NCBI GenBank assembly: GCA_013054445.1
Contig: JAAMPI010000433.1
Location: 1 to 38,063, forward strand
Source of the DNA: Cudoniella acicularis
Lineage: Eukaryota; Ascomycota; Leotiomycetes; Helotiales; Helotiaceae
Length of the DNA: 38,063 nt
Direction of reading: 5' to 3'
Of this stretch, positions 5,884 through 17,803 are shown piece after piece. Position 1 is the stretch's first letter. Each line of letters opens with the position of its first letter. The notes under the pieces are model-generated. The model was not told the origin of the DNA. It ran no database searches and worked only from the letters and a program-made list of their open reading frames with translations. Position numbers and translations under genes: made by a program.

Positions 5884-8522
5884 ATGCTGCTCCGAGGGAA
5901 GTCCAAAGAGAGGACTCGGAAAGTCACGCCACCAGGCCCAGTGTACATGTCAAATGAACAATTTGGTAAGCATTCTTCCTGTTCAGACTTGATCAAGTCC
6001 ATCACATTCCTCACTGTGCCACGTACTCACACTGACCATCACCAGCTGAATATCTCGCCGACTTGAGAAACAATCGCGTTGCACGACCCAGCGGCGCAAG
6101 ACCATTGCCAGCTGGCAACCGTCGCGAATCACAGCAAGCAGCTTCAATAGCTTCACAAACGACACCGCTGTCGACACCACAGACCAGCGAATTTCCAAAC
6201 TCACCGACCACAGAATATGGCCCGCGATCTTCAAGCGCTCTATCTCACAGGCGTGGACAATCTTCCCTTTCTACCTATGGCTCCGTAACATCGCGGACCG
6301 GTCGACAACTTGCCCAACCACCAAGTCAAACATCAACACCACCCCTAAAGCCATCCGAAGTTGTTCCAACTGCAACTTATATCGAACGAGGCCAAAGATG
6401 GATGGAAAAGGAAGAGGCTGTAGCCCTGCGAGAGGCGATGGAAGATATGGATTTGAAAAAGAAGGAAGAAGAGGAGGCCCGAATTCATGCCGCTGCTCAA
6501 AACGAAGCATCCGAGCTGGTCTTTCAACACCAGAATCCCAGTGCAGTTCAGCCCGATGCCCCTTACAGATACACAGAGCACCTCCGAAAGAATAGCTACG
6601 CTCATGCAAGAACACAAAGCGTTGGTCGATACGGTGGAATGGGTATTGCAACCGGCTTGGCTCGTGATATTGCTCCACGGTCAGTCTCTGGGAGTTCGAG
6701 TGGCAGCGGAGGGATGCCACGCAGTCGGGTATCCAGTGGCTCTTCGGACGACTTTCAATTCGATCGAAAAATGAGCCCTGAAGCTGGAGGAGCACGACAC
6801 TCGCTGGACACAACGAGAGAGATAGGCGGCCCGAGAGCAAATCCTAAATCGTATGGCAGCGTCTCTGGTGCTTCGAAATTTACGGGAGGCTCCAGACGGA
6901 AAAGCAGTGGCAAGAGAAACATTAGTGGGGAGATTGCCGGTACTTTTACCGGTGAACAGATATGGGAGGAACCCGAAGAGTCCTCGCCCCGTGGTCGTGC
7001 TGAGAAAGACCAAGACATGCCAGCTCCACTAAGAATCAAGCCTCGGAACCCTCTTAACCGTGTGCAATTTGACATCAGCCCACGGTCCAGCAGCACCCCT
7101 CCCGAACAAACGAAGTTCTCCAAGACCGAGATTCATCAGAACCCTCCAACACAGTCCAGAAATCCACTTTACACTGCCAATCCTCCACCGCCGGCTCAGA
7201 AGTCAGAGGCGAAGCCAGCTGAACCAGAAGATCCTGCTTCGGCACTCGCTATGAAAGATGGTCTTGAGATCCGCAGTGAGGAGATCAGACAGGCAACAAG
7301 CATGCGCTTGAAAGACCGCAGTCCCAAATTGCCGACGCCCACAGTTGTCAGTGACAAACCTGGCCGGCCGATCGTAAGCTTTGATACAAATTGGAAGCCG
7401 AAGGAGGCTGATATAAAGCCAGAAGTGCGAAGAAGATCCCCCTTCGACCGTAGTGCCACCGGTCAGAGGACGAGCGTACCTGTTCGCTCAAATTCGAAGG
7501 ATGTCGTACCCCCTATCCCGACAATTCACATTCCTGACACACCCTCAATCCAAGTAACTCCATCGCCCGTCCCTACTATAAATCTCCCTGACTCCCAACC
7601 GTCTGTCCCTACTATCAATGTATCAGATGCTCCCCCAATTCCTACCATAAACTTCCCAGATACTCCCGAAATCTCTATTTCAGCTCCTAATGTACCTACC
7701 ATCAACGTTTCGTCAAGCACATCACGGTCTGGAAGTCAAAGACCACTCCCAGATCCAAAGACTGCCGCCGGGCGACCTCGGCCAAACGGGCACGTAATAG
7801 CCGCTTCCAGAGGACACTGGTCACCGGCTGCAGCAGGCAAGAGAGCCACAGCGACATGCCACCAATGCCAATTACCAATCGAAGGTCGTGTAGTTGGATT
7901 ACATGGCAAGCCAGAGCACTTCCACCCTCAATGCTTCATTTGCTTCACATGTGGAACGGGCCTAGAATCTTTGGAAATTCGATCCGAACCAGACTCGAAG
8001 CGTGCAGAACGAATCGACAGGATCAAGCGAAGAGCTCGAGGGGAGAATATTCCTGAGGTTGAAGGCCAAACTTATGCTGAGGATGGGGACGAGAGATTGC
8101 GATTCTACTGTCATCTCGACTGGCACGAAAGCTTTGCCCCGAAATGTAAGCATTGCAAGACACCCATTATTGGAGAGCACACCATTGCGCTTGGCGAACA
8201 TTGGCATTATGGACACTTTTTCTGTGCCGAATGTGGTGATCCTTTTGAGAAAGGTCAGACTCATATTGAGAAGGATGGGTATGCTTGGTGTCTGAACTGT
8301 CAGACGAAGAGAACAGAAAGACGAGCGCCAAAGTGCAAGAAATGCAAGAAACCAGTCATCGGACAATACGTTCAAGCATTAGGTGGAGAGTGGCACAATG
8401 AGTGCTTCCGTTGCCACGAATGCCATGATGGATTCAACGATGGATGTTTCTATCCGAAGCAGGTTGGAGATGAGACGGTTGTGTTGTGCATTAAGTGTTT
8501 GGAGGTGCAATTGAAAGCTTGA
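5884..8522 (+). CDS. Paxillin-like protein with three C-terminal LIM domains
   Basis: Predicted 852-residue LIM protein resembling fungal paxillin-like proteins (Pxl1 type), which act as adaptors at sites of polarised growth and cytokinesis. Exon 1 is 5884–5965 and exon 2 is 6046–8522. The 80-nt intron (GTAAGC … CACCAG) restores NEQF|AEYLADLRNNR, followed by RPSGARPLP. The first 600 residues are low-complexity, Ser/Pro-rich and probably disordered, with a charged helical stretch (EEAVALREAMEDMDLKKKEE) and, at about 515–585, five degenerate PTI(N/H)-x-x-D repeats. Three LIM zinc-binding modules follow at about 632–720, 728–785 and 791–848, each with paired CxxC and H/C/D ligands (CHQC…HFHPQC, CKHC…HWHYGHFFC, CKKC…EWHNEC). 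LIM1 carries about 45 extra residues, charged and Arg-rich, between its two zinc loops. The start is the Met just before LLRGKSKERTRK; no better upstream Met lies in frame. Confidence 0.9.
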
Positions 8523-9642
8523 TGAAATGGGGCAATATCTGAAAAGCCGCTCTTTTAGTTGCTTTCCTTATACTGGTCACTCTTTATGCTAATACGAGAC
8601 TCTGAGAACATGAGATCATGCCATTCATTTGAGCGTTTTCTCCTATGTTTGGTAACATCTTGCATTGGGTGTTAGGTCATTTTAAGGGGCGTCTGTTTTT
8701 GTGAGAGTTTTTGGTGCAATAGGGTGGGGTTTTAGGGGAGCGAGGCAAAAAACAATTCATATTTGTACCTTATTATTACATTATCTGTTCTGTTGTGAGT
8801 GCTTTCGGGGCATTAAATTTCTATCCTCGCATCTATGCTATATATATTATTATCTTTAGTTTGAAACGCAAAGCCTTTTGCCTCTTTATTACTATGCTAA
8901 TATTTTAGGAGTTATTTGTTACAAGTCCGATCTAGTTTCCTCAGAGAGCTAGATTAGAGATTTTTTTTCTGGCTTGCTGAAAAGATCTAGAATCTCACCT
9001 CACCTAAAATCCGACAGTCTAATCCTTCCTTACTCTGTCGAAAGCCAAGCAGGCACGGTGCGCTTGAAAACACCTCCCTTGTCACTTGTACCTTCAGAAA
9101 TTTTCCAAATAAAGTAATCGACTCGAAGCCGGTCGGCAACAGCCCCTCTTCCCACTCTCTCGAGCCCCACCCATCCACCCATCCACCCATCACAGCCAAG
9201 CACACCACCAAACCCCTGCATCATGTCCAGGGTCAGCTCAAAATGACGCACTTCATACCCCGCCAGATCGATTCCGTGGAAAAACATATTTTATTCGTTA
9301 TTAATACAGCGATTTTTTTGACATGTAAGCAACCCGCAGGGCGTTCGGTGTGATGGTTAAGCATGGTAACCAATATTCCTGCCTGCCTGGTCTGGATATT
9401 GCCTCTTTTCGTGCTTCGGATATTATTATTGGAAATGATGTTTCCGAGGAGAGTGAGTGGTGTGGTAAGGTATTTAATCTTGTGCTTGTCGCACCATTCG
9501 ATATTTTGATTGCTTGATAAAATCTACACTACGCCCTTCAATTGAATCACTTGCTCTGCATCCGTTCAATTCACACCTAAAATTTTAAATTCAAAACAAA
9601 TCTCTATCTCCATCCTCTTTAACCCCCTAAAAATAAAGCAAA
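8523..9642. other. Intergenic: LIM 3' region and hydratase promoter
   Basis: An AT-rich 3' region of the LIM gene is followed by the promoter and leader of the hydratase gene. It contains about three tandem copies of ATCCACCC near 9172–9192. A minus-strand frame at 9030–9287 has no family resemblance and was not accepted. No RNA gene seen. Confidence 0.4.
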
Positions 9643-10729
9643 ATGTTTTCCTCCAACTCCGAAAGAGAAGCAGCAATCCAAACCTACGGCTGGACGCCCG
9701 TCCCCCACGACCTCGACTTACTTCTAAAACAACATTCCGAAGCTCCAAGCGGCGCTGCTGCACCCATCATCTCCGTATCTTCGATTCCCTTACCTCCTTC
9801 TGAATTAGCGAAAAAGGTGCATGAGTATGCGAAGAAGGAGTTGCCAGTTGAGACGTATAATCATTGTTTGAGGGTTTATTATTTTGGTGAGTGGGTTTGG
9901 TATTTTATTTTTTTGTCTGAAGATTTAATGAATCTGTATATTATTGATTACGCCGTTGCTATTGTGGGGTTCAATTGATAAATGAGGTGAAGTGAAGTGA
10001 AGTAAGCTGATTAAAAGTGAAAAATTCAGGACAAGCAATTCTCCAGCATGTATTCCCGAGCTGGAAAACCGATACCTTTGATGAGATGTATTTCCTCACT
10101 TGCCTGTTACACGACATCGGAACGACAGACAAGAACATCACCTCAACACTAATGTCATTCGGTTTGTCCATTCCCTTCACCTACCCCTCCATCATCCATC
10201 CCCTCCCCTAACACAAACCTAGAATTCGCCGGCGCCCTCCTCTCCCACACCCTCCTAACCTCCCTCTCTTCCCCACCCCCACAAACTGAAAACATCACCG
10301 AATCCATAATCCGACACCAAGACATCGGGACTGAAGGAACACAAACGCGTATTTCAGCTTTGACGCAATTAGCTACTATATACGATAACATGGGATTGCG
10401 GGAGGAGTTGGTTGCGAGGGGGACGATTGAGGAGGTTGTTGGGAAGTGGCCCAGGAGGGGGTGGAGTGGGTGTTTTGCGAGGACGTTGAGGAGAGAGAAT
10501 GGGTTGAAGGGGTGGAGTAATTCTAGGAGGCTGGGTGTGAGTTTTTTCCCTCCCTTTCTTTATTTTCTTGGTTTTGAGGATTTTCTTTGGTATTTTTTTG
10601 AGAGGAAAGCGAGAAAATATCTGATACGTGTGTGGTATGATACGCTGACGCATTTTGCTGTAGGAGAATGCATTTCCCGAGGGTGTCGAGAATAACAAGT
10701 TAATGGCACCTTATGATGCTGCTACTTGA
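9643..10729 (+). CDS. Cyanamide hydratase-like HD-domain protein
   Basis: HD-superfamily metal-dependent enzyme resembling fungal cyanamide hydratase (cyanamide + water to urea); the natural substrate in fungi is uncertain, so it may be a general nitrile/cyanamide detoxifier. Exons are 9643–9886, 10030–10161, 10223–10536 and 10664–10729, giving 251 residues, close to the roughly 245 of the known family. Introns are 143, 61 and 127 nt with GTGAGT, GTTTGT and GTGAGT donors. HD marks: NHCLRVYYFGQAI (first metal His), LTCLLHDIGTTDKN (HD pair), FEFAGALLSH, and ESIIRHQDIGTEG (later His ligands). The final exon, ENAFPEGVENNKLMAPYD, is typical of the family's C-terminus. No signal peptide, so probably cytosolic. 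The gene is convergent with the permease, with no evident shared regulation. Confidence 0.88.
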
Positions 10730-11477
10730 AGGAGTCTGTAAAATTTCTTGGTATTCTGGAAGGGAAAAAGGTGCTAGCTGTGCAACGGGGAGGACCAAAA
10801 AATTCATGCGGTGGAAAAGGCTTTCGGAATAGCTGACTGTTGATCTTTAATACGGCAAGGAAGAAAGGGCTTTAAGGTCTACTCCGGTCTTTCTTCCCAG
10901 ACGTATCACCTGAAAACTACTCGCCTGGGCTTTTCTTCTTCTTCTTGAAACAGAATGATAATAATAGTACTATAATGTAATCAAACAGCCGCCAGACTCT
11001 TCAATTCAAATCAAGTTAACGACGTGAAAAACTAATAGCGATCTCAGAAATGGGTTCCAAAGAAGCGGTTCCTTCCTCGCAATTAAGCCAGAAGGCCCCA
11101 TGCATCACACTGCCTATCATCGTAGATCGAGGTAACTTTTCTGGGAGAGGCAAAGGCAGACAACGTGAACGCCATGGAAGGGAGAGAAAGAAAAAATATG
11201 TGAAGAGGATTTTGGGTGGGAGTTTTTATGCAGCTGGAGACATCGGGGGGAGTTGTGAGTTTGTCATATGTGAGAGTTCGGTGAATTCGGAGAACTTGGT
11301 TGTTGTATCAAGGGTATATCATCCCTCCATTATCTTTATTTAAAGGTTTTACTTGTTGTCTGTCCGGGTTCTTGTTCAAACCGAGATATACATGTAGCTC
11401 AAGCTTCGGAAAAGGACCCAACCCAAACTCCTTTGAGTCCTTTTTCTTATCCCAAAAACACCAAAAACACCATGAAC
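10730..11477. other. Convergent intergenic region
   Basis: This is the 3' side of both the hydratase (+) and the permease (–), so it should hold both polyadenylation regions. A 97-codon plus frame at 11050–11343 is basic and low-complexity with no family resemblance, and was not accepted. Confidence 0.4.
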
Positions 11478-13318
11478 TCAAAGACCATTACTCGCACAGG
11501 TAAAAACACCACCAACATTTCCAGCATGATAGCTATCAATGATACTTTGAACACTAGTATACGTACCAGCGCCAAGGAAGAAAACCCCAATAATGATTAT
11601 GACAATGTTCAAAGCGAGCATCGAGTATCCGTAGACTGACTGTTCCTTGAGCCATGTTACGCCGCCGTCAACTCTCCTCATCCGAATGTAGGCTACGCCC
11701 CAGAATATGAAGCCGAAGAAAGAGTCGAAGAGTGAAGACATTAGTGATAGTAGGTCGGAGAAGAAGGGAATGACTTCGGCGATGATGAATGCACCACTGA
11801 AAAGAACAAAGGTTAGTATAGAAGTAAGGTATAAAGGAAATGATCACTTACATCCAAGTACATGCAAGAATACCTGCCCATGCAGCCCAACCAACGACAG
11901 TATGGCTAGACTTATGTCTCGTTCCCTCAAAAATGCGGAAGAAGATGAACCTAGCCGAGACCGAGGCATACAGAACCCCCAAGAAGATCAAAGTCGGAAT
12001 CATGAAAGAAAACGAGACCTTCTTGTAGATCCCGTTGCCCAAAGAACCGAAAGCGGGGGAAGTGTTGTATTGATTTCCAGTGTAGGCGTAAACGACAGAT
12101 CCGACACAGCCAAAGACAATAACCTCAGCGATCGTAACGGCCCAGAGAGCCTTGGGGAAATCCCTAGGGTTTTTCATCTCGGCGATGAAGCTGGGGAGGG
12201 TGATTTGTCCAATGAATGTGTAGCTGATGTTCAAGAAAGCGCTCATTCCCATGACGAAAGTCGTGCCTGCGACAGGGATTGCTGTGACGATGGGAGGGCC
12301 GCCGTGCATACCAGTTACTGGGTTGACATAGTTGGGATCGGGGTTGTAGTTGGCTGGGTGCGCTTCGATTCCTGCGAAGATTGAGGCGAGCAAGACAGAA
12401 ATGAAAGTGAAGAACGCAGAGACTGTTGCTAGTCTAGCTAATGCTGAAAATGTTCTTGGAAGAGAGCAGATCCAGCAGATAATTGTGGCAATAACTGCGA
12501 AGACGATGGTGCATTGGCTGTGATTGGTGATAGTGTTCAAGTATTTGGCACTGACGAGCACATGTAAACCCTGTTCAGGTTAGTGAGAGCCCATAGGCAG
12601 AAAGAGCTCTCAAATCTACCTGAATAAAAGTGTTGTTCAAGATGAACATGACTGCTGTTGCGTACCATGCCCAGGTTTTACCCCAGAAAAGCATCTGTCC
12701 GATATCACAAACATCTCGAACTTCCGGGTGTCTGAGACAAAATTCCCAGACAACAAGGGAAGTGTATAAGACAAGTCCAGCTACTACGACTGTTAAGATC
12801 AAGCTTGGAACAAGCCCCAGGACGGAGTAGCTGTATGGGAATGACATGATGGCTAAGCAGATGTATTCGGAGAAAAGGAGTGCAGCAGTCTATAAGTCCT
12901 GTATTAGCCTCTGTCCAAAAACCAATAAAACCAGGCTCGAATAGTTTCCAGTTCAGGGGAGGAAGTGGATATAGCTTCTTTGCCGACTCTCAACAGTAAA
13001 AAAAAAGGAAGGGATTGTACTTGCCTTTGGCCAACTACATGTTCTGTACTGGATATCATTTCCAGACTCCAATTCAATTTGCTTTCCCAAAATATCAGAT
13101 CCATCATCCACGCTTCCCACGTCAGTACCCCTCAAATGAGGGAGGACAGGGGCAATTCTTGCCCCAACGGGCTTTTCGCTGGCTCCATAATTGTTTCGAC
13201 CCCCGGTTTCTGCATCGAAATCGCCGCCGCTACCAATGCCAGAGTCGGTTTTGGAATCATCAAAGATTGGTTTATTTGAGTTTAGGCCCGAAGGAGAATT
13301 GTCTTTTCCTAACGCCAT
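11478..13318 (-). CDS. Neutral amino-acid permease, AAAP family (Mtr-like)
   Basis: Predicted 533-residue amino-acid/auxin permease-family transporter similar to Neurospora Mtr, an H+-coupled importer of neutral amino acids at the plasma membrane. Exons are 13025–13318, 12620–12889, 11852–12570 and 11478–11796; all phases agree. The hydrophilic N-terminus (about 95 residues, Gly/Ser/Asp-rich) leads into YRTCSWPKTAALLFSEYICL and the first helix, then MSFPYSYSVLGLVPSL. Other marks are VRDVCDIGQMLFWG, FIGQITLPSFIAEMKNPRDF and the C-terminal GGVTWLKEQSVYGYSMLALN. About 10–11 hydrophobic helices can be counted. The first intron (12890–13024, 135 nt) starts with GCAAGT rather than GT; no GT nearby keeps the frame. 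The other introns (49 and 55 nt) are ordinary GT–AG. The start is the first Met of the exon, with good coding character directly after it. Confidence 0.9.
12890..13024 (-). other. GC–AG intron in the permease gene
   Basis: On the minus strand the exon ends TGGCCAAAG and the intron begins GCAAGTAC and ends CTTATAG. Joining AAG to ACT gives the family-conserved SWPK|TAALLFSEY. A GT donor two codons downstream would break the frame. GC–AG introns are a known minor class that otherwise match the GT–AG consensus, as this one does (AAG|GCAAGT). Confidence 0.8.
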
Positions 13319-14288
13319 TTTCGCGATGGATAATGGACAATTGGGCTGTAGGGAATGGGGTGAGAATTGAGTGGTTGGAACAAGAGCATGTAAGCAGTGA
13401 GCACTGAATCTCTCAATTAAATCGATATATACGCGTGCCGTGGAGTCGGTCGCTCGTTGACGGTTGCCTGTTGGATTGATAGTTGTCGTGAAACCAGTAG
13501 ATTCGATTTCTGAGGGAGAAGGATAAGAAAGGCGGCAAAAATGTGGGAAATGCTTACTAGCACCCTTCTGTAATACCTACGTAAGGCTTGGTCCCGAGCA
13601 CTAAACTTTCGGGTCCTCAGTAATAGTATGCTCAAAAGCACCTATCAGGGTGCAACGGTGCGGGTTCTAAGCTCCAGTTGGCAGTTGGTAAAGACCGTCA
13701 TCAAAACTAATGCTAGTAAATTGCCAGGAAGCATGTCGAGGATCCTAGTGCTGGTTGGAGGATATCCCCGAGGAACGGCACGGCGCCTCATTTTGCATCA
13801 TTACTATTTCGAAATAACTTTTCACCCCTGTAATTGCGATATTCGAAAGAACAGGGCTTGAAGCTTGAGCCCATACAAGCTTGTGGCTCAAAAGCCGGTA
13901 TGGGGAAAGATCTCCCTTCTGCATCTGCATTAACAGGGTTCTGTGTGCCGGCCGCGCCATGTCTTTGAAGTTCGGTTCCCAAGTTGTAATTACGTATTTT
14001 ATGACGAGAAATTGTGAAGAAGCAACCGCGGTGTAAATATCGTTTTCAGGTCAAATTCAAAACGAGGCTTTCTTTCTTTCCGATTCGAAGGTGGGAGGCT
14101 TCCCACCAAAAGTGTGGGGTAGTGGCACGTGATGATCAGGATGCCGAATTTCGAGACTTTGTTACTAGTTCTCAGGAATACATTTCTGCTGTTGTATAAA
14201 GTAATACGAATTTATCTTGGGGTGTATATAGTTTTGTGTGCTCGAAGGAAGACTATTGTTTGATAATACAATATTTTCATCATTTCTT
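13319..14288. other. Intergenic: permease promoter and left flank of HNH units
   Basis: Nearly 1 kb without a convincing gene. The right part is AT-rich and leads to the AGTATT that borders the first HNH unit. A CACGTGATG box lies near 14127. Several short frames here lack protein-like composition. Confidence 0.4.
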
Positions 14289-14295
14289 GAGTATT

Positions 14296-16061
14296 CTATG
14301 AGATGGTTAGTAGGCCTCCGGTTTTATGCTATGCCTCTTTGGGCTATACTTTTCATCACAGCCTTTATCTTCGCTATCTGCTGTGACGTAGCCGTTGTTG
14401 CCTCAGGTAACAAGAAGTGCATTTAGCTAGTTTTGCTGTGAAACCTGAATCTATGGCTTTCCACCTACTCCTTCTACCGCCTTGTGTCTCTATCGTTGTC
14501 GTAGATCTCTTTATCATCCCAAGATGGCCACAGCGGATCCGCCACCCTTTCTAGCACAACGACGCCCACCTAAGCCCCCCCGCGAACTGGGTTACCGACA
14601 AGATATCTGCTTCCTCCATCCCGGATATCACACATCCAATCTGCTTCTAAACCTTCCACGCGTAGATAGCACAGTAGCAGCAGTGGATGCTACTCCTGCC
14701 TACGGTGTACATCATAGGACAGCTCTTCTAGCATGTCAGATCATCGCCGGTAACGCTTTTGACAATAGCCGTTTCGCGGTCGATAGGGAGGGTCGACAGC
14801 CAGTCCAGGTACCGCTAGACGGAGTCTTGACAGACAGCAAGTATTATTTCATCGTTGACGGCTCTGGTAAAGTGTTCCCCTCTTTCTTCCCTTCTAACAA
14901 TCCTCGCTAAATCTTATAGATCTATATCCTATTGTTCCCAGCTTCCAAGATTGGCAGTTTCCCCATGATCGCATCCCCGATTTCTGGCCTCCAGCCGCCG
15001 CCTCCTCGGCCGATAGTTGTGGTATTACAAACATCGATTTTGCTCTCGATAGGGCCTATCTCGTACCGCAGAAGGAAAGAACTTGGTATGAGGACAATGA
15101 TATGTCGAGATACGGGGTGGGTCTACCTGATATTGACAACCAAGTAAATATCCTCTCTCTTAGAAAGGATATACACCACTATTTCGATAATCGATGGTTC
15201 GTTATTGTTCCTAAGATTACTAACGGCGAAACCGAAAGCGCGACTCCCTCTATCCAATTCATTACGCATATTATCTCGCGAGAAGCGGCGGGAATATGGC
15301 CAATATATCATAATACTCTTGTCGAATCCCTCCATGATGGTTCTGAAGCTTATCTTTTTGCCCGATTTGCTTGGGCTATCCTTTTCCGGGCCAAGTCCTT
15401 CGTCATCAAGGGTCGTCCACGTTATGTTATTCAGATCCATAAAGATGAGGAAGGCGAAATAGAGTACAAAGCAGAGCATTTGACTAGCATAATACTCAGT
15501 TCTAAGTACGGTAGTGGCGGATCATAGGCAGCAACCCTAAAGAAGAGGAAGTCCGAGCTAGGTAGCGCAGTAAACGACGAGGGAAATCCTATAGAATCGT
15601 CTAGTGAGGATAGCGATACTAGCATGGAGGAGATGGACGGCCTGTGGGATATGATAGATTAGGAAGGGAGAAGGCAGAGAAGACAAGATCCGTTAGATGA
15701 AACCGTCCCCGATGATAAGGTGTATCCAGCATCGGACGTTGAGGCGGACCTCAGGGAGGCTTTACGCAAGGGCACATTAGAGCAGTAGACAGAGGAGGAC
15801 CCTCAGGATGTAGAGAGGATATTGTGACTAAAGTAAATAATTACGCCCTGAAAGTCTAGACAAAATAATATATATTCAACTTCTGCGATAAAGTTAGTTT
15901 TTTTAGTACTATAGGGGAGTTATATCACGTTTCTTCTACCTAGGGATGAAAAAATTGTATATTATTTAAGTATTCAAGAAGACCCTGGTTAGCAGACCCT
16001 CAAAAACAGCGACCAAAGCCCCCGAAAATAGCAGCTCGTTAACCGTTATACTATATAATAG
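14296..16061 (+). mobile_element. Candidate HNH mobile unit 1
   Basis: This 1,766-bp unit starts CTATGAGATGGTTAGTAGG and ends AACCGTTATACTATATAATAG. It is bordered left (14290–14295) and right (16062–16067) by AGTATT. Its ends match those of unit 2, while the two internal genes are quite different. The terminal tetranucleotides CTAT/ATAG are inverted, and GGTTAG near the left end has an inverted relative, AACGGTTAA, near the right end. The cargo is a decayed HNH gene. No transposase or integrase is seen inside. The element reading is inference; a plain tandem duplication with diverged centres is the alternative. Confidence 0.5.
14524..15827 (+). pseudogene. HNH-nuclease-domain gene, probably decayed by stops
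   Basis: Fungal HNH_2-type protein. Exon 1 is 14524–14866 and exon 2 starts at 14920, after a 53-nt intron (GTAAAG … CTTATAG) that gives DGSG|DLYPIVPSF; the Met at 14524 opens MATADPPPFLAQRRPP. The N-terminal 120 residues are followed by the nuclease core: CGIT, AYLVPQKERTW, DNQVNILSLRKDIHHYFD and VIVPK. The first catalytic His of the usual AHLVP motif is Tyr here (TAT), one C-to-T step from His; the Asn and second His remain. The frame meets TAG at 15525 (316 residues), yet coding-like acidic sequence (KKRKSELGSAV, ESSSEDSDTSMEEMD) continues in the same frame through TAG at 15660 and 15786 to TGA at 15825. Each TAG is one C-to-T change from CAG, as repeat-induced point mutation would make. 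It may instead be a shorter functional protein ending at 15527. Confidence 0.65.
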
Positions 16062-16067
16062 AGTATT
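15921..16067. repeat. Right-end repeat, copy 1
   Basis: This segment aligns with 17439–17634. Both run from TATAT-ACG through TTGTATATTATTT, the AAAAACAGCG block and CGAAAAT to AACCGTTAYACTATATAATAG followed by AGTATT. Copy 1 lacks about 45 nt found in copy 2. The differences are largely transitions, as expected if both copies have taken C-to-T mutation. Confidence 0.85.
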
Positions 16068-16203
16068 CTATGAGACGGTTAGTGGGGCGCGCAAACTTTG
16101 TCTAGGTGCGCGGCCTCTTTGAGTTTAGCAGCGGCGATTACGCCATGCTATTTACCGTCTTCCCATTGTTAAACCTTCGCCTACCATCTACAAGCTATCC
16201 ACG

Positions 16204-17494
16204 ATGTCATCTTCTCCTGCTCATTCCAGCTCCTCAGACTCTGGCTCCTCACAACCCAACACCCCCCTACAGCTCAAAAACATCATCGAAGAGCACCACA
16301 AAGTCACTCTCCCACACTTCGCAGACGCTCTACCGCATTCCGCAGACGCTCTACAACACTCCGCAGACGCTCTACAACACTCCNCAGACGCTCTACTACA
16401 CTCCGCAGACGCTCAACTACACCCCGCAGACACTTCCTCCCCCTCCAACCTGCCCCAAATCTCCACCATGGCCCCAAAAGATCGCTCAGGAGGACGGGAT
16501 GTCCATATCTACGATATCAAAGACCCTAGTACAGTACTTGGTGGTCTACGGCTCACAAATGGCGTCACAAACGCCAACTTCTATTCAATGGTCGAGATTA
16601 TTTGCTTGTTTACAAGTAACTTCGAATTACAAGATAAAGGCAATACCAAAATCGAGAAGGATAATAACCCGCTTCGACCAGGAAACTATTATATTCACGC
16701 TACTAGTAAATTTTATATAATTACGTTTATTGTTCTTAACTAATTAGACTTTATTAACAGGTCCTTTCTCAGTTAATAGTGAGCCATGGTTACTTCGTAC
16801 AATATCCCTTACTACTGGAACTCGTGTTCAATCCTTTTGTGACGCTGTCCGTTCGCGGGATAGTCGATGTGTCATATCTGGGGAAAAGGTTGTTACGGCA
16901 CATCTTGACGAATGGACGGGCTTTGAGGCCGCTCATGTCTTTCCACTAGCCTATGAAGGCCACTGGACTCAGAATAACTACAATCGCTGGATTACAATTC
17001 CACCACAATCAGGAGGAACTATTAATTCAGTACAGAACGGCATATTACTTAGGTCTGATATTCACCAGCTATTTAATACTTATAAACTCTCAATTAACCC
17101 TAATGTATGGAAAGTATTATATTTTAATTAAAGATATAGTAGCTAATGAGTATCTTAGGACGATTATAAGATTGTGTACTTTACTATTGATGGAAAGAAT
17201 CTTGCTGGCAAACATCTGGACCAACAGTTTCGTGAGGACCCTCAACGACCTATTGATCAGCTTTTGCGATGGCACTTTAGGCAGGCTGTCCTAGCAAATA
17301 TGAGGGGCGCTGGCGAGCCTACGTTCGAGCATGACTTCCCGCCTGGCTCGGATATAGTTGGTGATATTCTCTGTGGTCCAAAGGCTGGAGAAAGGATGGA
17401 GTTTGAGCTCTTTAGTCGTCTAGCAGCTCAGGTTGAATTATATGACGACGTTTTCTTCTGCCTAGGCAAGAAAATTTGTATATTATTTGTCTAA
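16204..17494 (+). CDS. HNH-nuclease-domain protein, apparently intact
   Basis: Predicted 393-residue fungal HNH_2-type protein; a nuclease role is inferred from family, and its target is unknown. Exons are 16204–16705, 16761–17104 and 17159–17494, with introns of 55 and 54 nt (GTAAAT … TTAACAG and GTATGG … TCTTAG). An N-terminal Ser-rich leader and a 7-residue repeat (LQHSADA type, residues 36–77) precede the conserved start RDVHIYDIKDPSTVLGGLRL. The nuclease core reads RCVISGE, FEAAHVFPLAYEGHW, SVQNGILLRSDIHQLF, so the H–N–H residues are all present. The C-terminal part has DQLLRWHFRQAVLANMRGAG and EHDFPPGSD. The final 18 residues (YDDVFFCLGKKICILFV plus the stop) come from sequence shared with the non-coding end of unit 1, so the C-terminus may be element-derived. 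One N at 16384 lies in the repeat. Confidence 0.82.
16309..16434 (+). repeat. Six 21-nt tandem repeats coding for 7 residues
   Basis: Six in-frame copies of a 21-nt unit like CTACAACACTCCGCAGACGCT encode variants of L-x-H-S-A-D-A. The second to fifth are nearly identical at DNA level. An ambiguous base (N) at 16384 inside copy four suggests that the repeat was hard to assemble or varies between reads. Confidence 0.92.
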
Positions 17495-17634
17495 GTATTC
17501 ACAATTCACAATTGAACTATTAACATTTTTGGGTGTATATACAAGGGGACCTTGGTTAGTATATCCTTAAAAACAGCGGCCAAACCCCTCGAAAATCGCA
17601 GCCTGCTAACCGTTACACTATATAATAGAGTATT
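17439..17634. repeat. Right-end repeat, copy 2
   Basis: Partner of 15921–16067. Its first 56 nt overlap the end of the HNH coding sequence of unit 2; the rest is non-coding and ends in ACTATATAATAG plus AGTATT. Confidence 0.85.
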
Positions 17635-17803
17635 ACTTGCAATAACCTCACTCCTTACTATTAGTGCCCTTTTGGATTTCTGTCGCACATAATATATTTG
17701 AACTCTCCTCTAATCTACAATGTTAAATGCTTTGACTTCTGAAACATCAGTCTTTTCTAATGCTGAATACGATATATCAAAATCCCATCTTCAGAAAGTC
17801 TTC

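Follow-up and report, generated by a model that had tools for sequence, protein, structure and literature searches.

Starships are defined, in the accessible portions of the literature, as large elements led by a captain gene. Cryptons, according to the accessible text of PMC3212892, have terminal direct repeats of 4 or 6 bp that are considered recombination substrates, and a circular intermediate has been proposed for them. The present analysis concerns a 38,063-nt stretch of the helotialean fungus Cudoniella acicularis (assembly GCA_013054445.1, contig JAAMPI010000433.1, positions 1 to 38,063, forward strand), hereafter the window, in which two adjoining units each hold a gene with an HNH_2 nuclease domain. 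The two units belong to a real dispersed family in which the ends are fixed, HNH genes have been exchanged and the right terminus is shared with DUF3435-type elements. They are probably miniature elements without a captain that a DUF3435 recombinase mobilises in trans, the HNH gene being a selected passenger or accessory. Captain-less units of ~1.5 kb with the same captain-side terminus contrast with the definition of Starships given above. The window contig is called C1209, and all C-numbers denote contigs of the host genome (53.2 Mb in 1836 contigs).

Two adjoining units with common ends

AGTATT is found at window positions 14290, 16062 and 17629. An earlier note, made from the sequence alone, had pointed to these three sites and to the matching ends of the units that they delimit. 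Both observations hold, and the ends extend further than noted: the left ends share 92% identity across 26 nt (14289-14314 and 16061-16086) and the right ends 84% across 97 nt (15971-16067 and 17538-17634), with extra short matches upstream. The termini align, and the middle ~1.2 kb, with ~40-60% identity per 100-column block, is not alignable. The units are therefore not simple duplicates, as that note had also argued, and an HNH_2 domain is present in both genes. The units and their borders are as follows.

14290..16061, + strand: unit 1, a class A element of 1772 bp, starting with AGTATT and ending one base short of the next AGTATT
14290..14314, + strand: left end of unit 1, AGTATTCTATGAGATGGTTAGTAGG; the same end occurs at C1072, C611, C1830, C1259 and others
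15917..16065, + strand: right end region of unit 1, up to AGTA, from sequence comparison with other copies
16062..17628, + strand: unit 2, a class B element of 1567 bp
16062..16067, + strand: common 6-nt junction AGTATT with inverted arms CTATTATA / CTATGAGA, a candidate recombination core
16062..16086, + strand: left end of unit 2, AGTATTCTATGAGACGGTTAGTGGG, from pattern search and curated ends
17446..17632, + strand: right end region of unit 2, ending ATAATAGAGTA; 79-90% identity at C1700, C45, C1671, C1829 and C1687
17629..17632, + strand: AGTA, the outer right border

Unit 1 shares 88% identity with C1072:77497-79242 across the entire unit, and the boundaries coincide. Unit 2 is 87.7% identical to C1700 across 1467 bp and has further relatives in C1829 and C1671. 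No tRNA or Rfam feature was found in the window.

A dispersed family in the host genome

A search of the host genome with the ends, proposed in the earlier note, bears out its suggestion of a mobile-element family whose ends are conserved and whose HNH genes differ, since the ends recur at unlinked loci whose flanks differ. A query spanning the junction of units 1 and 2 matched 12 places including itself; because 11 further places are matched, among them the right end of unit 2 itself and one left end (C999), the shared ends are not due to chance. The right-end query of unit 2 returned 12 rows, some of which are two pieces of one copy. A right-end pattern gave 19 matches at up to 3 mismatches, compared with 5 for a reversed-pattern control. 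The left-end pattern at 3 mismatches was barely above its control (48 versus 36), and its signal lies in 10 matches with at most 2 mismatches.

Five copies, including both window units, are compact and two-ended (1.4-1.8 kb). The others are C1072:77504-79240 (88% identity with unit 1 across 1.79 kb), C1700:5412-6991 and C1829:12356-13733. On C1259 the two ends are separated by 4.35 kb; an HNH gene lies on the left side, and minus-strand open reading frames (ORFs), for which no Pfam match above the cut-off was found, lie on the right. The right end, immediately inside which these ORFs (C1259:9818-12296) begin, shares 83% identity with the captain end of C503 over 195 bp, and the ORFs are possibly another gene carried between the same ends. 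At least seven partial copies were found (C611, C618, C1671 at a contig start, C1687 at a contig end, C1830, C45 and C1060). At C1830:9650-10311 and 11487-11690 a class A left end lies ~1.2 kb from another HNH_2 gene, a 470-codon open frame without ends, and that class A copy is interrupted at ~9650 by a repeat that recurs at C986:8347-9022. A third class of left ends, without HNH, was observed at C986:13290-14045, C922:6289-7755, C1829:13734-14472 and C999:41166-41337. Its members have a common GC-rich terminal region of ~170-750 bp and are possibly the far ends of long elements.

The borders and the AGTATT junction

The search patterns did not contain the border motifs themselves (AGTATT at the left, AGTA at the right). 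Among the 10 left-end matches with at most 2 mismatches, AGTATT lies immediately outside in seven, two of them the window's own. Twelve left ends, picked by pattern or BLAST, were curated, other pattern matches being dropped for want of further similarity. AGTATT stands at 11 of these 12, the exception being C986; AG precedes TA in all 12 and AGTA is present in 11. Of the 19 right-end pattern matches, 10 are family members by BLAST, with AGTA directly after nine of them, and the remaining nine were set aside as chance. In the curated set of right ends, which includes C618, C503, C785 and C394, AGTA is found at 14 of 16, and the bases that follow it vary. Judged by these border comparisons, AGTATT is the element's own left terminus and AGTA is what both borders mostly have in common. 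The earlier note had taken AGTATT for a 6-bp target-site duplication; this is ruled out, because the motif is fixed at left ends of unlinked loci and right ends keep AGTA followed by variable bases.

Around the window junction the inverted arms match at 6 of 8 positions, and a score of at least 6/8 is reached at 0.4% of window positions. Head-to-tail abutment on one AGTATT occurs at three loci, namely C1209 (unit 1/unit 2), C1829 and C922. On C1829 another left end starts immediately after the element, at 13734 (arm score 5), and on C922 a left end directly adjoins the right end that precedes a DUF3435-type gene, at 6287/6289 (arm score only 4). The common middle border of the window units thus has counterparts at C1829 and C922, which is consistent with site-specific integration into a core site that is regenerated.

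Two observations concern the flanks. The right-end alignment of 17543-17645 with C1072:79157-79257 continues ~10 bp into both flanks (TTATT.CAAG-like, other orientation), and TTTCTT stands directly before the left end at three loci (C1209, C1072 and C1700). Together they may be a hint of a longer target preference.

The right terminus and DUF3435-type genes

No transposase lies inside the units, as the earlier note had stated, so that a helper in trans would be needed. The genome contains 26 matches to PF11917, none of them on C1209. At five loci a right end of the same kind as in the units lies 403-616 bp ahead of the apparent start of a DUF3435-type gene that points inward. The PF11917 domain is matched at C503 and C785; C922, C1215 and C1296 are of DUF3435 type by similarity, without a PF11917 match. 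On C503 the right-type end begins at 7307 and the DUF3435 domain occupies 8588-9911. This end is 82.6% identical to that of C1259 over 195 bp, and 73-82% identical to the right ends of HNH units over 76-88 bp. On C785, TACTCTATTTAACG lies at ~5892 and the DUF3435 domain starts at 7353. On C922 the end is followed by an N-terminal region related to C785/C1626, on C1215 by one related to C503, and on C1296 a C785-type end at 7345 is followed by an N-terminal match at 7748 (46%, E 8.7e-7). The captain-side terminus is common to HNH units and DUF3435-bearing elements; its similarity to the HNH-unit ends is strong at C503 and C1215, and at C785 and C922 it is weaker.

The recombinase-domain stretch of C503 is missing from C1215. 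In this DUF3435 relative (C1215:5181-6188) the N- and C-terminal parts are joined without it; it is an internally deleted captain, which may illustrate a route to captain-less units. Another candidate mobiliser, a piggyBac-like transposase (PF13843, C986:12298-13276), looked promising because it sits inside a left-type end. It was rejected as a truncated neighbour, since the match ends near 13276, before the region common to C922 and C1829; upstream of it no right end was seen in 11000-12300.

HNH genes between fixed ends

The genes carried by the two window units have the following parts.

14524..15527, + strand: class A HNH_2 gene of unit 1, two exons in outline, its frame closed by TAG at 15525-15527
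16204..16705, + strand: exon 1 of the unit 2 gene, with the start, a 21-nt tandem repeat (16307-16431) and a DUF7881 domain (PF25324, E 2.4e-36)
16761..17104, + strand: exon 2 of the unit 2 gene, with the HNH_2 domain at 16868-17098 (PF13391, E 1.1e-15)
17159..17497, + strand: exon 3 of the unit 2 gene, whose downstream part is the relic kept in the class A elements C1687 and C618

Both genes lie above the curated cut-off of HNH_2 (PF13391), which is 21 bits. Unit 1 reaches 27.1 bits (E 3.8e-6) in a partial ORF at 15102-15527; more in-frame stops are found in the homologous sequence after its TAG, and three to four stops in the frame of C1259 exon 2. The in-frame stops indicate that the gene of unit 1 is probably decayed. 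The unit 2 gene reaches 57.7 bits, combines DUF7881 and HNH_2 in three exons and has an open frame apart from one N base. Its exon 2 contains H, N and H in the order expected of the HNH motif. The repeat at 16307-16431 comprises six 21-nt tandem repeats that give a seven-residue repeat, and C1700, C1829 and C1671 have gaps of 6-116 nt here, so that the N-terminus of the HNH protein varies in length. PADLOC gave no match for the unit 2 protein or the C1259 exon, and PDB none for the unit 2 protein.

A profile search of the genome scored 20 HNH_2 loci, 17 of them above the cut-off, and at least one such end is present at 10 of the 17. Nine have ends of the HNH-unit type. The tenth is C394, where a C785-type right end lies ~0.9 kb after the HNH match (76% over 89 bp, E 2.7e-12); a left end was not observed there. 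Scanning for the HNH-unit end motifs had revealed none of their own at eight of the 17 loci: the matches at C1671 and C1830 are elements already counted, one at C1063 with 5 mismatches was taken as chance, and C394 was gained on a recheck with the C785 and C922 ends. The other seven loci show no such ends within ~1.5 kb on each side. At C394:8329-9496 an HNH_2 gene on a long branch is followed by a right-type end of the C785/C922 kind; on this comparison, more than one captain-end subfamily may carry HNH genes.

In the HNH tree class A forms a clade with support of 97/97. Class B is united with C394 and the end-less loci C1063, C1745 and C1079 by a branch with 96/91 support, long branches being flagged. 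The class A elements C1687 (377 bp) and C618 (164 + 79 bp) hold the tail of a class B gene together with its right end. Since the HNH_2 lineages are separate and a class B tail persists in class A elements, the simplest history suggested by tree and alignment is replacement of the HNH gene between fixed ends, at least once.

The ratio of nonsynonymous to synonymous rates (dN/dS) was estimated by a custom script from Nei-Gojobori counts with Jukes-Cantor correction and bootstrap bounds, the pairs not being independent. It is 0.24-0.42 in all six class B pairs (from codon 97 onwards) and 0.31-0.60 in all ten class A pairs (exon 2); all bootstrap upper bounds are below 1, the highest being 0.98. 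In class B the last 180 alignment columns, of which the first ~45 are still coding, have an uncorrected divergence of 6-15%, lower than dS (0.13-0.47) in 6/6 pairs. The first His position of the HNH motif is occupied by Tyr in four of five class A copies and by His in C611. Between unit 1 and C1072, 66 of 125 transitions lie in CpA/TpG context (0.53, the crude base rate being 0.27), a pattern like that of repeat-induced point mutation; the bias is weaker in other pairs, down to no excess.

Proposed mechanism and alternative explanations

From these data we infer trans-mobilisation, a circular intermediate and a role for the HNH protein along the following lines. A DUF3435 tyrosine recombinase of the Starship-captain type, made elsewhere in the genome, would pair both ends and excise a small circle, whose junction would read right end-AGTATT-left end. 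The circle would recombine into chromosomal sites that offer AGTA. Each insertion would then be bordered by AGTATT at its left and, at its right, by AGTA followed by target bases, regenerating the core site, and a second circle landing beside the first would give head-to-tail arrays on one common core. The passenger would be an HNH_2 nuclease gene that selection maintains and that has been swapped for a different one at least once.

Several observations weigh against mobilisation by a DUF3435 recombinase. Four of the five DUF3435 loci (C503, C922, C1215 and C1296) were detected through the end itself, and the five loci therefore give no rate, which lowers confidence. Of three loci chosen by PF11917 alone (C785, C940 and C1626), only C785 has the end; C940 has no such end in 10700-12200 (its match begins at profile position 86, so that the gene start may be further up), and the contig of C1626 begins inside the expected end position. 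An N-terminal match is present at three of seven places with a C785-type end (C785, C922 and C1296). Both PF11917 genes with the end (C503 and C785) have in-frame stops, and some matches elsewhere have none. No left-type end was located for DUF3435 elements in a search that covered C503 for 7 kb past its end, C785 to the contig end except 7401-8740, and C922, C1215 and C1296 in part; for none of the left-type ends without HNH (C986, C922, C999 and C1829) was a link to a captain found. At the borders, two of the 16 curated right ends (C1072 and C618) lack AGTA. Five further C785-type ends (C230, C1638, C1123, C1296 and C1180) read AACT, not TACT, in captain orientation and are thus also without AGTA, which makes 14 of 21 overall. 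The empty site proposed in the earlier note was sought in the host genome and not found: the joined flanks of the window and of C1700 match only themselves.

A related arrangement, possible though rather unlikely, would be a cassette slot in which recombinase ends are fixed and HNH lineages are exchanged, with the nuclease as the element's tool, used to cut the AGTATT junction or to destroy rival copies, and with integration supplied in trans by a recombinase of the Starship type. We consider it more doubtful still that the HNH protein itself drives mobility or tandem growth by nicking or cutting the end-to-end junction, with repair copying or inserting a unit. HNH_2 is the sole protein recognised in the compact units, its dN/dS is below 1, one HNH is replaced by another, tandem units are present, and the accessible text of PMC9587614 describes a close analogue in the His-Me nuclease of KolobokP, for which such a mechanism has been proposed. 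However, the right end is also found before DUF3435-type genes on contigs without an HNH_2 match (C503, C785, C922, C1215 and C1296), Tyr replaces the first HNH His in most class A copies, and seven of 17 HNH_2 loci have no nearby ends.

A non-autonomous Tc1/mariner-like element with a TA duplication, short terminal inverted repeats (TIRs) TTCTAT/CTCTAT and HNH cargo would account for TA at both borders in most copies. The TIRs align best with TA as the duplication, and ToxTA is a known cargo-bearing example with TA duplications in the accessible part of PMC12506042. An element that inserts at TA would not need the AG that precedes it at every curated left end (AGTA at 11 of 12), and the right end followed by a DUF3435-type gene at five loci speaks against it too, which makes this explanation improbable. 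Ordinary segmental duplication of host HNH_2 genes with conserved flanks resembling untranslated regions, without transposition, agrees with a family of 17 HNH_2 loci in which some members show no element ends. It is contradicted by unlinked copies that end at identical boundaries; right ends of the same kind stand before DUF3435-type genes, and the insides differ while the ends persist. We regard it as very improbable.

Comparison with known systems

Literature searches recognised no HNH-bearing captain-less miniature elements; the main Starship surveys lay outside their coverage, so that absence from print is not established. Miniature inverted-repeat transposable elements (MITEs) parasitise DDE transposases. 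If mobilisation by a DUF3435 recombinase is true, it would suggest that these recombinases are open to parasitism in trans, as DDE transposases are by MITEs, and the captain-less ~1.5-kb units would define a minimal substrate for such a recombinase. The family also places 10 of the fungus's 17 HNH_2 loci in a concrete mobile setting and is a natural example of genes being exchanged while the ends stay fixed.

Among described elements, Cryptons are similar in having short terminal direct repeats as putative recombination substrates. They differ in that the recombinase tied to the ends of the units is DUF3435, that the units lack a recombinase gene, and that Cryptons are reported without TIRs in the accessible text of PMC3212892, whereas the units have short ones. 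KolobokP, which combines a DDE transposase with a His-Me finger nuclease, differs by its long terminal direct repeats, its own DDE transposase and its discovery in animals, according to the accessible text of PMC9587614. With Starships the units share short direct repeats, weak TIRs and variable cargo, and their right end corresponds to the captain (5') end, with a DUF3435-type gene ~0.4-0.6 kb inside and pointing inward. They are not full Starships, having no captain as first gene at the 5' edge and a size below 15 kb: the units measure 1.4-1.8 kb, compared with the 15-700 kb given for Starships in the accessible text of PMC12134995, and instead of a captain they hold a single HNH_2 gene and stand head-to-tail on a common core.

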